From assembly GCA_018402255.1 (NCBI GenBank), contig JAGYIS010000004.1, forward strand, positions 124,001 through 188,000: a DNA stretch of 64,000 bases, in the 5' to 3' direction. A program made the position numbers and the translations under genes. The notes under the pieces are model-generated. The model saw only the letters and a program-made list of their open reading frames with translations. It was not told where the DNA came from and did not search any database. Shown in pieces: positions 7,975 through 63,402 of the stretch (position 1 is its first letter; every line of letters begins with the position of its first letter). Source of the DNA: Marinobacter sp. (GTDB lineage: Bacteria; Pseudomonadota; Gammaproteobacteria; Pseudomonadales; Oleiphilaceae).

Positions 7975-9118
7975 GCGCCCACCTCCCGTGCCACTCGGTC
8001 CAGGTAGGCGGTAAAGATATCCGTGTATCTGGGCGTGGGGATCAAAAACGCATCATGACCCCAGGGGGCGTCTATTTCGGCATAACTGACTTTTTACGGG
8101 CCTGAATCATGGCATTCACCATTTCTTCCGAGCGGGCCGGGGTAAAGCGCCAGTCGGTACTGAATGATAGCACCAGAAATTCGCACTGAGCAGGGGCCAG
8201 TGCTTTGGCAAGATCGCCGCCAGCGGCGTAGGCCGGGTCGAAGTAGTCGAGAGCGCGGGTCATCAGCAAATAGGTATTGGCGTCGAAGATTTCCGAGAAA
8301 CGTTCACCCTGATAGCGCAGGTAGCTTTCAACCTGGAACTCGGCATCAAAGCCGAATTTGTAGGCTTCTTCACGCAGTTCCCGGCCAAACTTTTCACCCA
8401 TCGAGGCGTCCGACAGGTAGGTGATGTGGCCAACCATTCTGGCCAGCATCAAGCCTCGGCGGGGCAGTACACCAAAGTCCTGATAGCGGCCATCATGAAA
8501 TTCACGGTCTGAGGTGATGGCCTGACGTGCCACCTCATTAAAGGCGATGTTCTGTGCGCTGAGTCTGGGCGTGGATGCTATGACCAGCGCGTGGCGCAGG
8601 CGCTCCGGGTAGTCGAGGCTCCATTGCAGGGCTTGCATGCCGCCCAGGGAGCCGCCTATCACAGCGGCCCATTGTTGAATGCCCAGACGGTCGGCCAGGC
8701 GAGCCTGGCTTTTCACCCAGTCGGCCACGGTGATGACCGGGAAGTCAGGGCCGTAAGGTTTGCCGGTGGACGGGTTGATGGAGCTTGGCCCGGTGCTGCC
8801 ATGGCAGCCGCCAAGGTTGTTCAGGCTAACCACGAAAAAACGATGAGTGTCGATGGGCTTGCCGGGGCCGATGCAGCTGTCCCACCAACCGGGTTTTCGC
8901 TCTTCCATGGTGTGATAGCCAGCGGCGTGGTGATGGCCGCTCAAGGCGTGGCAGATCAGCACGGCATTGCTGGCATCGGCATTCAGAGTGCCATAGGTTT
9001 CTACCACCAGATCATAGCGCTCCAGAGACTGGCCGCAGGCCAGCTCGATAGGCTCATCAAAAGGGATGGTTTGCGGGCTTACTAAGCCCACGGAATCCGA
9101 GGGCAGGGAATCAGGCAT
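7971..9118 (-). pseudogene. metX: homoserine O-acyltransferase, apparent -1 frameshift at 8091-8095
   Basis: [23 protein letters not shown]... [20 protein letters not shown]; the ORF stops at 8072 but the next frame continues ...[39 protein letters not shown] and overlaps metW by ATGA. Confidence 0.9.
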
Positions 9119-23306: not shown

Positions 23307-23945
23307 TCAGACTCCGTAACGGTCCCGGTAGCTGGCCACGGCTTCCGCGTGGTCGGCAAACTCCGGATTGGACTTCAGGTAGTCCAGCACCTGTTCAAGG
23401 CAAATAATACTGACAACGGGAATACCAAACTCCTGTTCCACTTCCTGGATGGCAGAACGTTCGCCGTTGCCTTTTTCCTGTCGGTCCAGGGCGATCAGCA
23501 CGCCAGCGGGCTCGGCGCCCGCCGCGCGGATGATGTCTATGGATTCCCGGATCGCGGTCCCGGCGGTAATAACATCATCAACGATCAACACCTTGCCGTG
23601 CAAAGGGGCGCCCACAATGTTGCCGCCCTCACCATGATCTTTCTTTTCTTTGCGGTTAAAGGCAAAGGGTTTGCTGTTACCGTCTGTTGCCAGTGCCATG
23701 GCGGTCACCGTGGCCAACGGAATGCCCTTATAGGCGGGGCCGAAAATAATGTCATAATTCAGGCCGCTGCGCTCTATTGCTGCAGCGTAGGCCTTGCTTA
23801 GTTGTAGCAGGTCGTTTCCGGTATTGAACAGCCCGGCATTGAAAAAATATGGGCTTGTGCGCCCGGATTTGAGTGTAAATTCGCCAAAACGCAGAACATT
23901 CCGGTCAATGGCAAATTCGATAAATTTTTGCTGATAGTCGTGCAT
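23307..23945 (-). CDS. pyrE: orotate phosphoribosyltransferase
   Basis: [35 protein letters not shown] loop. Confidence 0.97.
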
Positions 23946-24026: not shown

Positions 24027-24833
24027 ATGCGGGTAGTATCAATCAGCGTCAACGGTCTTGAACAGGCTGTTGAAAAAGGCTTTTTCGACTGGCTGGCCGA
24101 GCAGGACGCTGACGTCGTCTGTGTGCAGGACCACCGCATGCGCGCCTACGAGATTGAGGACAAAAACCTGATCCCGGACGGCTACGAGGCTTACTTTATT
24201 GATGGTGAGCTGAATGAGCACGGTGGCGTGGGCATTTTCACCCGGCATTTCCCGAAGGCGATCATGTATGGCTTTGCCAATGAGCAGGCGGATCGTGAGG
24301 GCCGGTTTATTCAGGCCGACTTTGATAAAGTTTCCGTGGCGTGTGTGCTCGCCCCGAACGCGCTAGGGCGCGAAGAAGAGTTGACCGGTGACGATGATCT
24401 GACCGTTCTGGACCACAAGGACGAGTTCATGGAAGCGTTTGGTCTGCACATGCAGAAGACCCTGCGCAAGCGTCGGCAGTTTATTATCTGTGCCAACCTG
24501 CAGACGGCCCATCACGTTACGGATGCCAGCCCGCTTTATCACAAGCTCGACTTTTCTGGCTTCCTGCCCCACGAGCGCGCCTGGCTTGATCGCTTGTTTG
24601 ATGAAATGGGCTGTATTGACGGTTTCCGCGAGATCAACAAGCAGAGCAATCAGTTTACCTGGTGGCCGGAGGGAGCTGAAGGCTCCCGCAAGAAAGCCGG
24701 CATCCGGGTCGATTACCAGTTGCTGACGCCTGGCATCCGTAAAACCATCAGTGATGGCTGGATTGATGACGCGACTCGGTTCTCTGATCACGCACCGGTG
24801 ATCATGGATTACGACATCGAAATCGGGCTCTGA
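24027..24833 (+). CDS. crc: catabolite repression control protein Crc (ExoIII/EEP family, catalytically degenerate)
   Basis: RVVSISVNGLEQAVEKGFFDWLAEQDADVVCVQD, GRFIQADFDKVSVA, QFTWWPEG...RVDYQLLTPGIR resemble Pseudomonas Crc from memory; divergent from pyrE and near rph as in Pseudomonas; ExoIII GDxN motif replaced by CANL. Confidence 0.85.
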   Translation: MRVVSISVNGLEQAVEKGFFDWLAEQDADVVCVQDHRMRAYEIEDKNLIPDGYEAYFIDGELNEHGGVGIFTRHFPKAIMYGFANEQADREGRFIQADFDKVSVACVLAPNALGREEELTGDDDLTVLDHKDEFMEAFGLHMQKTLRKRRQFIICANLQTAHHVTDASPLYHKLDFSGFLPHERAWLDRLFDEMGCIDGFREINKQSNQFTWWPEGAEGSRKKAGIRVDYQLLTPGIRKTISDGWIDDATRFSDHAPVIMDYDIEIGL

Positions 24834-24984: not shown

Positions 24985-25701
24985 TTACTCAGCCAGCGCC
25001 GCTTTCTGAAGTTCAAACAACTGATCAATCGCCTTCCGCGCAAGCGCCAGCATAGAATCCAGTTCTGACTGCTCAAACGGCGCGCCTTCCGCAGTTCCCT
25101 GAATTTCGATGAAGCCACCCTGGTCGGTCATGATAACGTTCATGTCGGTTTCGGCTTCGGAATCTTCCGGGTAGTCCAGATCGGCTACCGGAATGCCTTT
25201 GTAGACACCCACAGATACCGCTGCGACCATCTGCTTGAGCGGTGATTTCTTCAGGCGTTTGGTGGCGACCAGGTGGTTCAGGGCATCAACCAGGGCCACG
25301 CAGCCGCCGGTGATCGCTGCAGTGCGGGTGCCGCCGTCGGCCTGGATGACGTCACAGTCGATGGTGATGGAGTGTTCACCCAGAGCGGTCAGGTCAACTG
25401 CGGCACGCAGGCTGCGGCCGATCAGGCGCTGAATTTCGACGGTGCGGCCACCCTGTTTGCCACGGGCGGCTTCACGGCCCATACGGCTGCCGGTGGAGCG
25501 GGGCAGCATGCCGTACTCAGCCGTAATCCAGCCTTTGCCTTCACCGCGCAGGAACGGCGGTACCTTGTTTTCCACCGAGGCGGTGCAGATCACCTTGGTA
25601 TCGCCGAACTCAACCAGCACCGAGCCTTCAGCATGGCGAGTGTAGTTGCGGGTGATACGGACGTCTCTGGGTTGCTCTGGCGTTCTGCCACTTGGTCGCA
25701 T
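24985..25701 (-). CDS. rph: ribonuclease PH
   Basis: [36 protein letters not shown]. Confidence 0.97.
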
Positions 25702-51952: not shown

Positions 51953-52321
51953 TTGGCAGAGCGTAGCGTAGACACGGTGCTCATTGAGGGCCTGGCGGTC
52001 GAAACCGTCGTGGGTGTTTATGATTGGGAACGGGAGGTTACCCAGCGGCTGCTGGTTGATCTGGAGATGGCCTGGGACATCCGTATACCCGGTGCCAGTG
52101 ACGATGTCGCCGACGCATTGGATTACGCGGCAGTCAGCGAGCGGGTTAGCCAGTGCCTGCAGATCATGAAGCCTCAGCTGATCGAACGCGCGGCAGAGGA
52201 ACTTGCCGCGATGCTGCAATCCGAGTTTGGCGTGCCGTGGCTGAGGCTGGCCTTACACAAACCGGGCGCTGTGCCGGCTGCGCGTTCGGTGGGCGTGCGG
52301 ATTGAACGTGGAGTGCGCTAA
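51953..52321 (+). CDS. folB: dihydroneopterin aldolase
   Basis: VDTVLIEGLAVETVVGVYDWEREVTQRLLVDLEM; TTG start inferred. Confidence 0.88.
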   Translation: MAERSVDTVLIEGLAVETVVGVYDWEREVTQRLLVDLEMAWDIRIPGASDDVADALDYAAVSERVSQCLQIMKPQLIERAAEELAAMLQSEFGVPWLRLALHKPGAVPAARSVGVRIERGVR

Positions 52322-52839
52322 TGAGTCGGGTCTATATCAGCATTGGCAGTAATATCGAGCGTTACCGGCACGTAACGGCCGCACTGGATGCGCTACACGC
52401 ATGGTTTGGCGAGCTGATCATCTCGCCCGTGTATGAGAGCGAATCGGTGGGCTTTGAAGGCTCCGACTTTCTGAACCTGGTGGTAGCTATCGAAACCGAG
52501 CTGACGGTCGGTGAATTATCGCGGCGCTTTAAACAACTGGAGGCGGAGAATGGCCGAACCCGATCTGCGCCAAAATTCAGCCCCCGAACGCTGGATCTGG
52601 ATATCCTGACCTACGATGATGCCAAGGGCGTGGTCGACAGCGTTGAACTGCCACGGGCAGAAATTCTGAAGAATGCCTTTGTGTTGCGGCCGATGGCGGA
52701 TATCGCCGGCGATGAGCTGCACCCGGTATGCGGGCAGTCATATGGTCAGCTATGGCAGGACTATCAGCGTGACCAGAAACTCTGGCCAGTTGATTTCAGC
52801 TGGCAGGGCCGGTGGGTGTCACGGGCGCTTGTGGGCTGA
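52321..52839 (+). CDS. folK: HPPK (FolK), copy linked to folB
   Basis: VYISIGSNIERYRHV ... RSAPKFSPRTLDLDIL. Confidence 0.85.
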   Translation: MSRVYISIGSNIERYRHVTAALDALHAWFGELIISPVYESESVGFEGSDFLNLVVAIETELTVGELSRRFKQLEAENGRTRSAPKFSPRTLDLDILTYDDAKGVVDSVELPRAEILKNAFVLRPMADIAGDELHPVCGQSYGQLWQDYQRDQKLWPVDFSWQGRWVSRALVG

Positions 52840-56297: not shown

Positions 56298-56798
56298 TCA
56301 GTGGCTTGCGGGCTGGGCTGGTAACCGTCGCAACTGGTTGTCCGGACACTGACGCCGCAAGGATTGAATGCGCTGGCCATCCGGTAAGGTCAGCCCTGGA
56401 TTCAGATCGAGCAACGGTTGCAGCACAAAATCCCGGCCGGGAAGTTCGGCGTGGGGCACTGTGAGGCGCTCGTCATGAATGGTTTCATTGCCGTACATCA
56501 GCAGGTCGAGATCCAGCGTGCGCGGGCCCCAGTGCTGCTTGCGTTCCCGGCCATGGGCCTGCTCAATGGATTGCAGGTGGTCCAGTAGCTGGTGGGCCGT
56601 CAATGTGGTGGCCAGTTCAACCGCTCCGTTCACAAAGTCTGGTTGGTCCTGGGGGCCAACGGGCCGACTGGCGTAAAACGGTGACTGCGCCTGCAGCGTT
56701 GTGCCGGGCAGGCCGGCCAGCTCAGCGACCGCCCGGGCCAGTTGTGCCGCCGGGTTCTCCAGGTTGCTGCCCAGCCCGATGTAGGCCAGTACGGTCAT
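56298..56798 (-). CDS. folK: 2-amino-4-hydroxy-6-hydroxymethyldihydropteridine pyrophosphokinase (second FolK copy)
   Basis: AYIGLGSNLENPAAQL; HWGPRTLDLDLLMYG. Confidence 0.95.
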   Translation of the reverse strand: MTVLAYIGLGSNLENPAAQLARAVAELAGLPGTTLQAQSPFYASRPVGPQDQPDFVNGAVELATTLTAHQLLDHLQSIEQAHGRERKQHWGPRTLDLDLLMYGNETIHDERLTVPHAELPGRDFVLQPLLDLNPGLTLPDGQRIQSLRRQCPDNQLRRLPAQPASH

Positions 56799-58165
56799 GC
56801 CTGCGGCGGCCTCGTTACTGGACTGCGCTTGCGGCGACGCTTGCGGGGGGCCGTCGCAGAGCCCAGCTCTGACAGCATTTTCTCCTGCGCCCGTTCGTCA
56901 ACACGCTGGAAGTCGGTCCACCATTTCCCGAGCCCCGGCTCGATTTCGCCCGCTGATTCCCGCACCAGCAGGAAGTCGTAGGCGGCCCGAAAACGTGGGT
57001 GTGTCAGCGTTGCAAAGGCGCGTTTGCCCTGGCGGCGGGGCAAGCGTATCTGCAGTTCCCAGATTTCTTTCATGGGGCCCGAGAAGCGCTTGGGAATAGC
57101 TGTTGCCTGCACCTGGCGGCCGATGACTTTGCCTATGGCGCCATGCAACGCAGGTTGTACCGGATCGCCATTGTCTTGTCGGTGGTGCCATTCTGCCTGC
57201 AATGCCGGCCACAGCATGGCGGCAAACAGGAAGTAGGGAGTAACGGATTTGCCCTGGGCAATCCGGGCATCGGTGTTGCGCAGCGCCTGGCGAATAAGTT
57301 CGTCGGATTCGCCTGCCTCGATGGCTCGGGCGGTTTCAGGAAACAACGGTTCCAGCAAACCGTAGTCGAGCAGTAAATTGTAAGTGGCTTCGCCATGGCC
57401 GGCGGAAAACAGTTTGAGCACTTCGTCAAACAGCCTGGCTGATGGAATGTGAGTCAGCAATGGCGCGAGTTTGCGAATCGGCGCCTCGGTTTCCCGCTCA
57501 ATATCAAAACCGAGCTTGGCGGCAAACCGTATGGCCCTGAGCATGCGCACAGGGTCTTCCCGATAACGGGTTTCGGGGTCGCCGATCAGTCGGATTTGCC
57601 GGTTGTTCAGGTCCTGAACCCCGTTGGCATAGTCAATGATGGTGAAGTTGCGAATGCAGTAATACAGGGCGTTGATCGTGAAGTCCCGGCGCAGGGCGTC
57701 GTCCTCCATGTTGCCATAGACGTTATCGCGCAACAGCAGCCCGTGTTCGCTGGTTCTGTGCTCGTCGTCGGCGACTTCCTCTTCAGCGTCCCGGGCATTG
57801 CCGCGGAAGGTGGTGACCTCGATCACTTCGCGCCCGAACACCACGTGCACAATCCGGAAGCGCCGGCCGATCAGCCGTGAGTTCCGGAACAGGTCGTGCA
57901 CTTCTTCCGGCGTTGCGTCGGTGGCGATATCGAAGTCTTTGGGCTGGCCGCCGAGCAGAATGTCTCTTACGCCGCCGCCGACAAGGTAGGCTTCGTAGCC
58001 CGACTTGTTCAGCCGGTGCAGTACTTTTCTGGCCTGCTCGCTGATCATGGAGCGCGAGACAGTGTGCTGATCTCGCGGGATCTCCTGTCGCTGGTAGCGT
58101 CGGACTTTCTTTTTCCCGTTGCCGGGCATGAAGGAGCGTAGTTTGTCTACAAGTCTATTAGGCAT
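56795..58165 (-). CDS. pcnB: poly(A) polymerase
   Basis: AYLVGGGVRDILLGGQPKDFDIATDATPEEV; basic C-terminus. Confidence 0.96.
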   Translation of the reverse strand: MPNRLVDKLRSFMPGNGKKKVRRYQRQEIPRDQHTVSRSMISEQARKVLHRLNKSGYEAYLVGGGVRDILLGGQPKDFDIATDATPEEVHDLFRNSRLIGRRFRIVHVVFGREVIEVTTFRGNARDAEEEVADDEHRTSEHGLLLRDNVYGNMEDDALRRDFTINALYYCIRNFTIIDYANGVQDLNNRQIRLIGDPETRYREDPVRMLRAIRFAAKLGFDIERETEAPIRKLAPLLTHIPSARLFDEVLKLFSAGHGEATYNLLLDYGLLEPLFPETARAIEAGESDELIRQALRNTDARIAQGKSVTPYFLFAAMLWPALQAEWHHRQDNGDPVQPALHGAIGKVIGRQVQATAIPKRFSGPMKEIWELQIRLPRRQGKRAFATLTHPRFRAAYDFLLVRESAGEIEPGLGKWWTDFQRVDERAQEKMLSELGSATAPRKRRRKRSPVTRPPQA

Positions 58166-58310
58166 GGAATTCCGTGTTTGCGGTGCGCAAAAACAGGGAT
58201 TTTAACGGTTTGAGCAGGAATTGCACACGTTTAGGCAGTTTTCGTGCCCAGAAAGATAATACAGAGAGGGTGTTTTTTCGGCTGCGGCCCTTTTCAGGAG
58301 CCAAATAATC

Positions 58311-58340
58311 AAAAGGCGGATCCGTTTTCACGAATCCGCC
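58311..58340 (-). terminator. rho-independent terminator of crcZ-like RNA
   Basis: Minus strand GGCGGATTCG TGAAAA CGGATCCGCC TTTT. Confidence 0.85.
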
Positions 58341-58692
58341 CTCAAAGCGTTGACGATCTGCATTGTTTTTGTTGTTGTCGGGATTCTTTTTGATTTTTTA
58401 CCCCACCGTGTGTCCTAAAGATAAGGACAATAAGCAACGCAAACGGAAAGCTTTGAATACATAGAGCAGTCAGGAGCATGGTGCGGGTGATTGGAGTAGC
58501 TGCAGTGCCGTTTCTGGAACGATTCTTCTCTACATCTACAACTCGCACATGCCTGGGGACCACTAAAAAGCAAAGTACCCAAAACACTCAGTTCGCTTGC
58601 GTCCAGTTTTTGTTTTTGTTGGTGGACGCTCGTGTAGCTTTTTGTTTTTGTTTTATCGCTACGTTGTCACTTTTGTTTTTGTTGTTGTGCGC
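58311..58692 (-). ncRNA. crcZ: CrcZ-like Hfq/Crc-sequestering small RNA
   Basis: Between cbrB and pcnB; sigma-54 promoter at 58702-58717; minus-strand A-rich CA motifs CAACAACAAAAACAAAA (58671-58687), AAAACAAAAACAAAAA (58639-58654), AACAAAAACAAAAA (58607-58620), AAAAATCAAAAAGAA (58384-58398), CAACAACAAAAACAA (58363-58377); ends at a terminator hairpin. Confidence 0.85.
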
Positions 58693-58701
58693 CATATAGA
58701 G

Positions 58702-58717
58702 TGCAGAGCTCGTGCCA
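58702..58717 (-). promoter_or_regulatory. sigma-54 (RpoN) -24/-12 promoter
   Basis: Minus strand TGGCACGAGCTCTGCA: GG-N10-GC, near-consensus TGGCACG-N4-TTGCA. Confidence 0.85.
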
Positions 58718-58748: not shown

Positions 58749-58850
58749 AAGTGTTTTACAGAAATAAGTGTTACCCCGTATTCGGCTTAAGTGTTACCTG
58801 TCAGGCCTTGGGATTTCGGGAAGTGTTACCGTGAGGAACGTTCGGTAACA
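58749..58850 (-). promoter_or_regulatory. putative CbrB upstream activating sequences
   Basis: + strand AAGTGTTACC at 58766, 58789 and 58821, degenerate AAGTGTTTTAC at 58749, and dyad TGTTAC-N15-GTAACA at 58824-58850. Confidence 0.7.
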
Positions 58851-58870: not shown

Positions 58871-60265
58871 TTAGCTTTTCTTGCGCGGGATGCCCAGGCG
58901 TTGCCGTCGCTCCCAAAGTGATTTTCGGCTGATGCCCAGTTTTTGGGCCAGTTCGGTTTCACTCATCCGGTCCTGATTTTCCAGCACAAAATGCTGGAAG
59001 TAATCCTCCAGTGACAAGTCGTTGGCAGAATCGGTCTCACGGGTACGGGTCTGTTCATTGTTGCCCTCTACCAGGGTTTCCGGGATGTAGTCATCGCCGA
59101 AATCGTTGTCCAGATCGAGCACGCCCGGTGTGATCACGTCGCCGTCGGTCAGAATGGATGCTCGCTCAATGGCGTTTTCAAGTTCCCGGACGTTGCCAGG
59201 CCAGCGGCAACGTTCAAGAGCCTGCATGGCCTCCGGGCTGAGGCTGAGCTCGGGCCTGCCCAGTCTTTCCGCCTGCCGCTTCAGGAAGCGACGGGCCAGG
59301 CCCAGAATGTCGGACCGACGCTCCCGCAAGGGTGGAATCCGGATTTGCATCACGTTCAGGCGGTAATACAGATCCTCCCGAAACTCACCAGTGCGGGTCA
59401 TGGCTTTCAGGTTTCGGTGGGTGGCGGCAATCATTCGTACGTCTACGGTGCGGCTCTGGGTGGAGCCTACTTTGCGTATTTCGCTTTCCTGCAACACCCG
59501 CAGCAGCCGCGCCTGGGCTTCGGCCGGCAATTCACCAATTTCGTCCAGAAACAGGCTGCCGCCATCAGCGGCTTCGATCAAACCCGTCCGGGCAGACACA
59601 GCCCCGGTAAAGGCGCCCTTTTCGTGGCCGAACAGTTCAGACTCAATCAGGCTTTCGGGGATGGCTGCGCAGTTGACTGAAATCATCGGTTTGGTGGCAC
59701 GTGGGCTAAGCAGATGCAGCGCTCTGGCGGCCAGTTCCTTACCGGTGCCGGATTCACCCTGGATCAGCACCGTCGTTTCTGTGGGCGCGACTTTGCGAAT
59801 CAGTGTGAAGACTTTCTGCATGGGCTCACACTGGCCGAACATGATGGCCGAGGGGTCGGATGCCTCCGCACTGTGCTCCCCGGAAGAATCATCACTGGCC
59901 AGATTGCCCATGTCGGTGTTTTTGCGGGCCAGAATGTTTTCGACCGCCGCCAGCATCTCGTCGTGATCAAAAGGTTTGGCAATGTAGTCGACGGCGCCCA
60001 TTTTCATGGAGTCGACGGCAGAGCGCAGGCTGGCGTAACTGGTCATGATCAACACCGGGGTGTTCGGGGCGCGATTGATCATCTCGGTACCGGCAGCACC
60101 GGGCAGCCGAAGATCGGTGATCACCAGGTCGAAGCTGTCTGGCTCAAGCAGGTCTGCTTCTTCGACGGAGACGGCATCAGCTACCTCGTAGCCGGCATGC
60201 TGAAGCAGTTTTCGCACTGCAGATCGAATAATGTCTTCATCTTCAACAATCAGAATGCGGGGCAT
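58871..60265 (-). CDS. cbrB: sigma-54-dependent response regulator CbrB (NtrC family)
   Basis: Receiver + AAA+ (GESGTGKELAARALH, GHEKGAFTGAVSARTG) + Fis HTH; adjacent to cbrA and pcnB. Confidence 0.93.
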   Translation of the reverse strand: MPRILIVEDEDIIRSAVRKLLQHAGYEVADAVSVEEADLLEPDSFDLVITDLRLPGAAGTEMINRAPNTPVLIMTSYASLRSAVDSMKMGAVDYIAKPFDHDEMLAAVENILARKNTDMGNLASDDSSGEHSAEASDPSAIMFGQCEPMQKVFTLIRKVAPTETTVLIQGESGTGKELAARALHLLSPRATKPMISVNCAAIPESLIESELFGHEKGAFTGAVSARTGLIEAADGGSLFLDEIGELPAEAQARLLRVLQESEIRKVGSTQSRTVDVRMIAATHRNLKAMTRTGEFREDLYYRLNVMQIRIPPLRERRSDILGLARRFLKRQAERLGRPELSLSPEAMQALERCRWPGNVRELENAIERASILTDGDVITPGVLDLDNDFGDDYIPETLVEGNNEQTRTRETDSANDLSLEDYFQHFVLENQDRMSETELAQKLGISRKSLWERRQRLGIPRKKS

Positions 60266-60272
60266 ATCGCGT

Positions 60273-63236
60273 TCACGACCTTTGGTTCGGGGAGCTGTTG
60301 CCGGTATCGGTTTCTGGCTCGTAGGCGGGCAAGCGCAGTCTCATGCAGGTTCCGCGACCGGTTTCATTGCTGGCCGGGCTTTCCACTTGCACGTTGCCAT
60401 AGTGTTCTTCAACGATGCTGTACACCAGTGACAGACCAAGGCCAGTGCCTTTGTTCGGAGCCTTGGTGGTGTAAAACGGCTCAAAAATATGATCCAGCTG
60501 GTCGGCCGGAATGCCGGAGCCTTCATCGACCACTTCGATGATAGCGGAGTAGCCGTCGCGGTTTCCACTGACCCGCACCACGCCGCCGTCGGGGGAGGCG
60601 TCGCGGGCGTTAGCCAGCAAGTTCACAAACACCTGGACCAGGCGCTGCTCGTCGCCCAGTACTTGCAGGTCTTGCGGGCAATCGTTCAGGTAGCGAATGC
60701 CCATGTCTCTGTCACTCAGCGACAGCAGGTTAATGGATTCTTCGACGCAGCGATAAATACTGACCGGCTCATAGCGGTTGGCGTGGGCGTGATTGCCGGT
60801 GCGGGCAAAGTTCATCAATGACTGCAGGATGTTGGAAATCCGTCGGGTTTGTTGCTGAATCTGTTCGGCGGTTTCCAGAATGGCAGGGTTGTCGGTTTCC
60901 AGTTTCAGATTTTGTGCCAGTGATGAAATGCCGGTCACCGGGTTGCCAATTTCATGGGCCACGCCCGCAGCCAGCCGGCCCACCGAGGCCAGCCGTTCGC
61001 TGTGCATCAATTCGTCTTCCAGCAAGCGGGTTTCGGTTTGGTCCTCGACCAGAATAATGGAGCCACCCTCGGCGTGATCGGGACCACTGAGGGCTGCTTT
61101 ATGCAGGTTCAGCCAGTGTGGTTTGCCACGGAGATCCAGCCGATGCTTGTATCGGTGCAGGTCGTCACCGCCGTTGAAATCCTCCAGCAACGCATGCCAG
61201 CGATCGGGTAAGGCGAGCAGCTTGGCGCCGACCACTTCGTCAGCAGAAATGCCGGTTAGTGATTCCATGGCGTGGTTCCACATCAGGATCTCGCCGTCCT
61301 CGCCTACTGAGCAGGCGGGTATCGGAAGGTTTTGCAGCGTCTGGCGATAGTGTCGGCGCAAGTTGTCCAGCTCACCGGCCAGTCCGGTCAGCTGATTCTG
61401 GTAGTCGCCCAGAGCCCGCTCCACATAACGGATGTCCTGACCGGTGCCACCGTGGGTGAGTGGCTTGAAACCCAGGTGACGTTTGACGATATCCCGGGCC
61501 ACCGATGGCCCGAGCAAACCCGACAGGTTCACTTCGACCTGGTCGCGCAACCGGCGCAGTTGATAGGGACGGAATTCCACATTGGGTAGTTTGAGCTGCT
61601 CCAGACCCCGGTCCACTTCCCGGCGGGCAACGCTCATGCCGAGCGGGTCGGCCAGTTGCTGAATGAAATCGTTTGAGGAGGCGGCCAGTAGCTCCCGGCG
61701 CTGGGGTCGGGACAGCGCCCCGACCGAACAGGCCTGGGCGGCACTGTTCTCCTCCGCTGAGGCCGGGCTCAGAATAGACACCAGCGCGAACATGCAAATG
61801 TTGGCAGTCAGGCTGACGAAGGTGAACAGGTGCCAGTTGTCGTAACCCGGCGTAACCGGAAGGTTCATCCAGCTCAACAGATCGGTGGTGTGGGAGAACG
61901 GCAGCACAAGCGTGACCAGCCAGATCAACAGCCCGGTCATCAAACCTGCAATCAGCCCGCGCCGATTGCCCTCCGGCCAGTAGATAACGCCCAGGGCCCC
62001 AGGCAAAAGCTGCAGCGTGCCCGACAGCGAGATAGCCCCCAGAATGGAGAGGTCCAGATGCTGGCCAATGGTTTCATGAAACAGCAAGGCCAGGAACAGA
62101 ATCACAGCGATCAGCAGGCGCTTGACCCATTGCAACCAGCGATAGATGTCGCCCTGATCCTTCGGTGTTTTCAGCGGTAGCACCACGTGGTTCAGCACCA
62201 TGCCGGCCAGCGACAGGGTGCTTACGATCATGAGTCCGCTGGCCGCTGACAGGCCGGCAATGTACATCATTAGCGTCAGTGCCGGGCTGCCCAGCGCCTG
62301 TGCCACGCCAATGCTGAAAAAGGCCGCCGGCACACCAACGTCCAGCGCCTGGCCGGCCCAGACAATCAAGGGCACCGGCAGGCCGAGCAGCAACAGGTAC
62401 AGCGGCAGGCCCCAGCTGGCTTTTGCCAGTGCCCGGGGCGAGGGGTTCTCACTGAAGGTCATGTGGTACATATGCGGCAGTACCAGTGCAGCGGCAAATG
62501 ACATGAGCAGTAACGCCCGCCAGCTTCCGTCATCAATCGCCGCAGCCATGGTGACTTCCGGGTGGGAGGCCTGGGCCAGCCATTGCTCCAGGCCGTTGGT
62601 GCCGCCGAAGACGCCAAACAGGATCACCCCGCCAAGCACCAGCAGAGCCACCACTTTGACCAGAGAATCAAAAGCAATGGCCAGTACCAGGCCCTGATGA
62701 TTGCCGGTGTTCTGATGGTGGCGGGCGCCAAACAGCACGGTGAACAACACAACAATCAGGCTGAACATCACGCTGATGGCTTTGGGTGAGGTGTCGGGCG
62801 CCAGCAAGCTGGCGGATACCGCGACCGCCTGAATCTGCATGCTCAGCAGGGCAAGTATGGCGGCAGCGGAACACAAGGTGACCAGAGTGCCGGCCCACTG
62901 GCTGCGATAGCGGTAGGCAAAAAGATCCGCCAGGGATGTCAGTTGATAGGCCCGGCCAATACGAAGAATCGGGTTGAGCAAGACGGGGGCCAGCAGGAAC
63001 GCCCCGGAGATGCCCAGGTAGTAAGCCAGAAAGCCATAGCCGGACTCGGCCGCCATGCCGATAGCGCCGTAGACTGCCCAGATGCCGGCATAGACCCCCA
63101 GGCTGAGGGTGTAAACAAGCGGATGGCGAACCCAGCGGCGCAACACTGTGCCGCGCTCGGTTCCCCAGGCGATACCGAACAGTAGAATCAGATACAGCAG
63201 GCTGGCCAGTAGCAGGCCGGTTGCGCTAAAACTCAT
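60273..63236 (-). CDS. cbrA: sensor kinase CbrA (SSS/SLC5-like transporter domain + PAS + HisKA/HATPase)
   Basis: Multi-TM N-terminus; HisKA SVGRLAAGVAHEIGNPVTGISSLAQNL; N-, G1- and G2-box; start inferred at 63236. Confidence 0.93.
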   Translation of the reverse strand: MSFSATGLLLASLLYLILLFGIAWGTERGTVLRRWVRHPLVYTLSLGVYAGIWAVYGAIGMAAESGYGFLAYYLGISGAFLLAPVLLNPILRIGRAYQLTSLADLFAYRYRSQWAGTLVTLCSAAAILALLSMQIQAVAVSASLLAPDTSPKAISVMFSLIVVLFTVLFGARHHQNTGNHQGLVLAIAFDSLVKVVALLVLGGVILFGVFGGTNGLEQWLAQASHPEVTMAAAIDDGSWRALLLMSFAAALVLPHMYHMTFSENPSPRALAKASWGLPLYLLLLGLPVPLIVWAGQALDVGVPAAFFSIGVAQALGSPALTLMMYIAGLSAASGLMIVSTLSLAGMVLNHVVLPLKTPKDQGDIYRWLQWVKRLLIAVILFLALLFHETIGQHLDLSILGAISLSGTLQLLPGALGVIYWPEGNRRGLIAGLMTGLLIWLVTLVLPFSHTTDLLSWMNLPVTPGYDNWHLFTFVSLTANICMFALVSILSPASAEENSAAQACSVGALSRPQRRELLAASSNDFIQQLADPLGMSVARREVDRGLEQLKLPNVEFRPYQLRRLRDQVEVNLSGLLGPSVARDIVKRHLGFKPLTHGGTGQDIRYVERALGDYQNQLTGLAGELDNLRRHYRQTLQNLPIPACSVGEDGEILMWNHAMESLTGISADEVVGAKLLALPDRWHALLEDFNGGDDLHRYKHRLDLRGKPHWLNLHKAALSGPDHAEGGSIILVEDQTETRLLEDELMHSERLASVGRLAAGVAHEIGNPVTGISSLAQNLKLETDNPAILETAEQIQQQTRRISNILQSLMNFARTGNHAHANRYEPVSIYRCVEESINLLSLSDRDMGIRYLNDCPQDLQVLGDEQRLVQVFVNLLANARDASPDGGVVRVSGNRDGYSAIIEVVDEGSGIPADQLDHIFEPFYTTKAPNKGTGLGLSLVYSIVEEHYGNVQVESPASNETGRGTCMRLRLPAYEPETDTGNSSPNQRS

Positions 63237-63402
63237 TGGGATCTCGCCGCCATTCCAGCCAGAAACCAATGGCAATCAGGCCGCCCCAGATCACATAGGG
63301 GCTGTACCAGGCATTTTCTGGTGAGGTCCACCAATCCAGTATGTTCGGGGAGAAAATGTAAATGGCCAGTACCAGCAAAAAGACCAGGCGGTAGATATAC
63401 AT
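63226..63402 (-). CDS. small membrane protein between gluQ and cbrA (CbrX-like)
   Basis: 58-aa ORF MYIYRLVFLLVLAIYIFSPNILDWWTSPENAWYSPYVIWGGLIAIGFWLEWRRDPNEF*, below the ORF-track cutoff; overlaps the cbrA start. Confidence 0.75.
   Translation of the reverse strand: MYIYRLVFLLVLAIYIFSPNILDWWTSPENAWYSPYVIWGGLIAIGFWLEWRRDPNEF

Follow-up and report, generated by a model that had tools for sequence, protein, structure and literature searches.

A Marinobacter Crc ortholog with a decayed AP-endonuclease active site, and the range of the CbrAB–CrcZ–Crc circuit across its order

Introduction

In Pseudomonas, Crc aids the RNA chaperone Hfq in silencing genes for less-preferred foods. Marinobacter is a genus studied for hydrocarbon degradation, and an open reading frame (ORF) of the ExoIII family beside pyrE in a Marinobacter sp. 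raises the question of whether it encodes a repair nuclease or a Crc. The distinction matters, as a repair-nuclease label in the databases would hide catabolite-repression control in Marinobacter. The analysis covers a window of 64,000 nucleotides, the whole stretch taken from contig JAGYIS010000004.1 of assembly GCA_018402255.1, together with homologs from the same GTDB order. We conclude with high confidence that the ORF is the Marinobacter crc, encoding a protein with the AP-endonuclease/ExoIII fold that has very likely lost catalysis and would act as an Hfq co-repressor. The features of the window are collected in Table 1.

Table 1. Features of the crc and cbrAB–pcnB regions of the window; f-numbers are codes for families of the GTDB order, and Pa denotes P. 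aeruginosa numbering.
Feature	Position	Strand	Basis or remark
pyrE, divergent neighbor of crc	23307..23945	-	TIGR00336
crc	24027..24833	+	268-aa EEP-fold protein, Crc ortholog, decayed AP-endonuclease active site
Codon 35: Asp replacing ExoIII Glu34	24129..24131	+	Alignment; invariant in 35 Marinobacter
Codon 77: Lys in the basic patch that faces Hfq/RNA (Pa K77)	24255..24257	+	54 K, 3 R among 57 decayed Crc
Codons 144-150, KTLRKRR: RNA-clamp patch (Pa K135, R138-R141)	24456..24476	+	Alignment
Codons 157-159, N-L-Q replacing D151-x-N153	24495..24503	+	Alignment; N157 and Q159 invariant in 35 Marinobacter
Codon 229: Asp229 equivalent kept	24711..24713	+	Kept in 57/57 decayed Crc
Codons 254-255: Asp258-His259 kept (SDHAP, residues 253-257)	24786..24791	+	Alignment
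rph (RNase PH), convergent neighbor of crc	24985..25701	-	TIGR01966
pcnB; as in Pseudomonas, downstream of the CrcZ-like gene	56795..58165	-	TIGR01942; synteny
CrcZ-like RNA (predicted ends)	58303..58691	-	RF01675, 47.8 bits, E 3e-11
Sigma-54 promoter TGGCACGAGCTCTGC (predicted)	58703..58717	-	One of two TGGCAC-N6-TGC sites in the window
CbrB-type subsites (predicted)	58769..58850	-	TGTTAC 58850-58845; GTAACA 58829-58824, 58797-58792, 58774-58769
cbrB: receiver + sigma-54 AAA activator	58871..60265	-	Pfam; ~64% to CbrB of f22
cbrA: 1000-aa sensor kinase, PAS + HisKA + HATPase	60273..63275	-	Pfam

Identity of the crc ORF

A first-pass annotation made from the letters alone had read the pyrE-adjacent ORF as Crc and expected it to be auto-annotated as exodeoxyribonuclease III, and both readings hold, as does the adjacency. 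The top PDB match by phmmer is P. aeruginosa Crc (4jg3/4f1r, E 6e-70 to 9e-70), followed by 2myi, entitled P. syringae Crc (E 8e-67), and more weakly by NApe (E ~3e-41) and E. coli ExoIII (E 2e-13). The NCBIfam model TIGR00633 (xth) gives a score of 175, well over its cut-off (99), so that the NCBIfam name for the ORF is likely to be exodeoxyribonuclease III. As a protein, Marinobacter Crc belongs to an already known family. Its dN/dS of 0.03–0.06 against ten Marinobacter orthologs indicates strong purifying selection and is not a product of chance.

A tree was made from 93 homologs belonging to 39 families of the order, together with the Marinobacter protein and P. aeruginosa Crc, the sequence of the latter being taken from the phmmer alignment. 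All seven catalytic residues are intact in 38 of these proteins; the other 57, among them the Marinobacter protein and P. aeruginosa Crc, have a decayed set. In the full tree, all 57 fall together across a single branch (100/100). When the seven catalytic columns are removed, the branch persists (SH-aLRT 98) with one change, a value as low as which none of 500 shuffles gave. The Marinobacter protein stands beside P. aeruginosa Crc, and no clustering with active ExoIII/Xth enzymes, the outcome contrary to a Crc, was seen. The type of decay varies among lineages, always affecting Glu34 and/or Asp151. Marinobacter crc is linked to pyrE, and so are 54 of 55 further decayed homologs whose flanks were retrieved.

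The proposed comparison of a structural model with Pseudomonas Crc gave a divided result. The AlphaFold2 model, made with 35 Marinobacter sequences, is poor (pLDDT 60.4). Crc entries come first by Foldseek E-value, but the TM-scores of 0.67–0.69 fail to separate Crc from NApe, and the structural comparison therefore adds little.

Active site and RNA clamp

The catalytic set N-E-D-N-D-D-H reads N-D-N-Q-D-D-H in Marinobacter Crc, with three of the seven residues replaced (E34D, D151N and N153Q), and by alignment the complete ExoIII/NApe active site is absent. The replacement of Glu34 by Asp in VCVQD and the retention of SDHAP, both claimed in the first pass, were found at D35 and at residues 253–257. 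The loss of the GDxN motif also stood, but its register, given as CANL, was off by one: C-G-D-L-N has become C-A-N-L-Q. Residues D35, N157, Q159, D229, D254 and H255 are invariant among 35 Marinobacter Crc sequences. Across the decayed proteins the Asp229 equivalent is invariant and that of His259 is found in 52 of 57, and the N of SVNG is also kept in Marinobacter Crc.

All three are conservative replacements (E to D, D to N, N to Q). Since Asp229, Asp258 and His259 are kept as well, more of the active site survives than in P. aeruginosa Crc, which showed no DNase activity and has Ser148 and Tyr150 at the D151 and N153 positions (PMC3662782). In Marinobacter Crc, the equivalents of APE1 Asp210 and Asn212 are lost (D151N, N153Q) in addition to E34D. 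According to the title of PDB entry 5dfj, human APE1 mutated at the equivalent Glu and Asp positions (E96Q/D210N) was used for a substrate complex. On account of these changes, nuclease activity has very likely been lost.

In P. aeruginosa, the RNA held on Hfq is contacted by a Crc patch made up of K77, K135 and residues 138–141 (PMC6422490, PMC9890229), and R140 is essential, the R140E mutation abolishing repression (PMC6422490). The equivalents of K135, K139, R140 and R141 are present in all 57 decayed Crc. Among 22 intact NApe-type homologs, by comparison, K135 occurs in 4, K139 in 8, R140 in 8, R141 in 16 and K77 in 2. Catalytic loss and fixation of the clamp thus go together.

The residues that form the P. 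aeruginosa dimer and its second RNA contact are altered in Marinobacter (E142Q, K155V, W161L, R162Y, F231T and R233S). At the dimer positions, R229 is kept, next to R230K, E142Q and F231T, and these positions are poorly conserved across Crc generally. Since they are not conserved across the order, the details of assembly probably vary, and the Marinobacter Hfq–Crc assembly may differ from that of P. aeruginosa, where several permissive Crc dimer interfaces are already used (PMC9890229).

The cbrAB–CrcZ region and hfq

The first-pass annotation placed cbrA, cbrB and a CrcZ-like RNA 34–39 kb from crc; the interval is about 33–38 kb. The N-terminal region of CbrA aligns end to end with that of CbrA from other families (full-length homologs, 47–54%). 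Pfam gave no match to an SSS domain, and the SLC5 domain was recognized only through alignment of full-length CbrA homologs. The pair consists of an N-terminally extended PAS-HisKA-HATPase sensor and an adjoining sigma-54 regulator, and is linked to a CrcZ–pcnB block.

The spacer framed by cbrA/cbrB and pcnB is 705 nt long and holds the hexamers, the sigma-54 site and the RF01675 match. The hexamers are of the F1/R1/R2 kind, known as CbrB subsites from P. putida (PMC6296734). The other sigma-54-like site in the window, TGGCACTCTGAATGC, is at 8993 (-). At the Rfam gathering threshold (95 bits) the RNA is missed. It is classed here as CrcZ-like, a positional ortholog, having a predicted sigma-54 promoter, predicted CbrB sites and predicted unpaired ARN stretches between cbrB and pcnB. 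The predicted layout consists of three A-rich stretches within unpaired regions, a conserved core, one more A-rich stretch and a terminator hairpin, the unit ending in the hairpin plus a T-rich tail. Alignment of five Marinobacter shows conservation of the promoter, the A-rich stretches, the core and the terminator.

The spacer contains 13 AANAANAA motifs where 2.7 would be expected, and its opposite strand has none. They lie within 400 nt, and the next best 400-nt stretch on either strand of the window has two, so chance is not the explanation. In the predicted RNA, the mean unpaired probability of the motifs is 0.94, compared with 0.38 elsewhere. Two ORFs resembling HPPK (FolK) were also seen in the window, one at 52321–52839 (+) beside a folB-like ORF and one at 56298–56798 (-) beside pcnB.

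As the first pass had proposed, hfq is the sole circuit member absent from the window. It is on another contig, and with it the gene set of the circuit is complete. The Sm core of Hfq is present and near-identical to that of the P. aeruginosa Hfq in the Hfq–Crc cryo-EM entry 6o1k. The same genome also encodes an Xth of the E. coli type, a separate protein in which none of the seven catalytic residues is replaced. A-rich motifs occur just upstream of ATG 114 times in this genome, against 76 in a reversed-pattern control (1.5-fold), and in this genome-wide search only a small share of the sites checked had a plausible start after them. With so mild an excess and so few plausible starts, no list of Crc/Hfq targets is given.

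The mechanism proposed for Marinobacter is transferred from Pseudomonas. Target mRNAs would be held by their A-rich (ARN) stretches on the distal face of Hfq, and the RNA backbone left exposed there would be clamped by Crc through K77, K144 (Pa K135) and R147-K148-R149-R150, stabilizing the assembly so that ribosomes would be unable to start. Once the preferred carbon source is exhausted, CbrA would activate CbrB, which, at the TGTTAC/GTAACA sites, would drive expression of the CrcZ-like RNA, located between cbrB and pcnB, from its sigma-54 promoter. The four ARN stretches of this RNA would then titrate Hfq and lift the repression. DNA repair would be covered by the separate intact Xth.

Alternative explanations

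The crc ORF could instead encode a working AP endonuclease or exonuclease of the NApe or Xth type, as the TIGR00633 score above cut-off, the NApe-type matches in the PDB and the retention of Asp229, Asp258, His259 and the N of SVNG would have it. This is very improbable: N-E-D-N-D-D-H is complete in all 38 intact-side homologs, whereas the Marinobacter protein, with three of seven replaced, groups with Crc, and the genome has its separate intact Xth. Unlikely, but deserving more weight, is a protein of Crc ancestry that works differently, for example as an Hfq partner without a Crc–Crc dimer or with a retained metal site. The P. aeruginosa dimer and second-RNA-contact residues are indeed unconserved in Marinobacter and across the order, and the invariance of Asp229, with His259 in 52 of 57 decayed Crc, would suit a metal site. 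However, there is no variation in the RNA patch, where mutation abolishes repression, and P. aeruginosa assemblies already employ several permissive dimer interfaces (PMC9890229).

As for the RNA, the CrcZ-like segment could be mere A-rich spacer DNA and no circuit RNA at all, given that its RF01675 score is half of the gathering threshold and that the Rfam model weakly matches unrelated control genomes by chance at a loose E-value. Yet the match (E 3e-11) falls exactly between cbrB and pcnB, behind a sigma-54 promoter and hexamers; the 13 motifs all lie on one strand, far above expectation; and the elements are conserved in five Marinobacter, with the same layout in 27 families. We give the spacer explanation hardly any credence and retain the reading as a CrcZ-like RNA.

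Range across the order

CbrAB was called unique to Pseudomonadaceae in a 2022 review, and the review PMC8871633 treats the system from that family only. No report of the circuit in Marinobacter was found in the open-access literature. Among 118 genomes from the order, 90, belonging to 37 families, have matches of the CbrA type (460 bits or more), mostly full length. In 27 families, the spacer between cbrB and pcnB carries a sigma-54-like site and five or more AANAANAA motifs. The exceptions are f20 (no enrichment), f43 (an 88-nt spacer), f11 and f42 (two motifs each), f44 (motifs without promoter) and f9 (a weak promoter). With P. aeruginosa Crc nested inside it and CrcZ matches above 300 bits, family f22 is regarded as Pseudomonadaceae. 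Judged by its genes and predicted RNA, the CbrAB–CrcZ–Crc circuit is found across most of the order and is not family-specific, which contradicts the published view of CbrAB as exclusive to Pseudomonadaceae.

In f8, four genomes, G043 (L033), G084 (L133), G113 (L129) and G137, have a decayed Crc or a high-scoring match without a CbrA-type match; these are possibly Acinetobacter-like. An A-rich RNA resembling CrcZ, sRNA99, has been reported in Acinetobacter (PMC12802169). The f15 genome G140 (L083/L216) has cbrB, a CrcZ-like RNA and pcnB in order and no CbrA match, so another sensor may feed CbrB there.

Order of events

A tree of RpoB and RpoC was rooted with 15 genomes of other orders, and Crc labels were assigned by family. 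Family f20, in which a decayed Crc is present in one genome (8% contamination) and absent from another, was left out. The order divides into two strongly supported clades: clade A, with 12 genomes of 9 families and no decayed Crc, and clade B, with 33 genomes, 27 of them labeled as having a decayed Crc. CbrA is found in both. The CrcZ-like block is present in clade A families f19, f23, f28 and f36, and likewise in f26, which groups with them in a CbrB+PcnB tree. In f28, 10 of 11 genomes have no Crc-like gene beyond the Xth level; six of these, plus the eleventh (G063), have a cbrB-linked spacer with 21–56 motifs and a promoter. The f28 loci L201, L202, L405–L407, L409, L412 and L416, with a CrcZ-like RNA and 21–56 A-rich motifs, represent natural circuits without Crc. 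Hfq was found in all 16 genomes checked, most of them Crc-lacking. In clade B, f45 has a CrcZ-like RNA without a decayed Crc. A sister clade with CbrAB, CrcZ-like RNA and Hfq but no Crc would imply that the RNA–Hfq switch can work alone.

The homologs at pyrE and/or rph in clade A or f26 are all intact (f23, f26, f28 G063, f33 and f36) and apparently represent the ancestral state of crc. Loci L036 (G058), L169 (G061), L175 (G063) and L184 (G071) show a complete AP-endonuclease active site in this position, and in the G058 protein KRR is already present while K77 and K135 are absent.

On balance we favor, though not firmly, an order of events in which CbrAB–CrcZ–Hfq goes back to the ancestor of the whole order and Crc joined it later, a single time, in the clade holding Marinobacter and Pseudomonas, when a pyrE–rph-linked AP endonuclease lost catalysis and fixed the RNA-clamp patch. 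Most simply read, the ancestor of clade B would have gained Crc when the pyrE-linked enzyme was converted in place, an active copy being retained elsewhere in many families. Alternatively, Crc may have been lost in clade A. Crc loss inside the order, drawn from a midpoint-rooted CbrB+PcnB tree, was superseded by the outgroup-rooted RpoBC tree.

The wider value of the locus is that it points to a circuit that spans the order, not one family, and that probably predates Crc. The contribution of Crc to Hfq could be tested by a comparison of natural lineages: those in which Hfq and the CrcZ-like RNA occur without Crc, and those in which the enzyme at the crc locus is still intact.

Comparison with known systems

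Marinobacter Crc shares with P. aeruginosa Crc (PDB 4jg3, 6o1k-m, 8bvh/j/m) its fold family, length and pyrE neighborhood, the loss of E34 and D151-x-N153, the K77/K135/RKRR patch and the retention of Asp229 and His259. It differs in sequence (~40–44% identity), in having D151N/N153Q in place of Ser/Tyr, in keeping Asp258 where P. aeruginosa has Gln, in its dimer and second RNA-contact residues and in nine extra residues near 111–125. The CbrA/CbrB–CrcZ module of Pseudomonas and Azotobacter has the same order, cbrA-cbrB-RNA-pcnB, with a sigma-54 promoter, TGTTAC/GTAACA sites and ARN stretches, but the Marinobacter RNA has diverged past the Rfam gathering score.

The NApe-type AP endonucleases (N. 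meningitidis, PDB 2jc5/4b5f) have the same fold and are the nearest catalytically intact relatives of Crc. However, their active site is complete, the K77/K135 patch is mostly missing in the intact homologs of the order, and they fall on the opposite side of the 100/100 branch. Xth, or E. coli exonuclease III (PDB 1ako), belongs to the same EEP superfamily but has only ~25% identity and corresponds to the separate intact gene in the Marinobacter genome.
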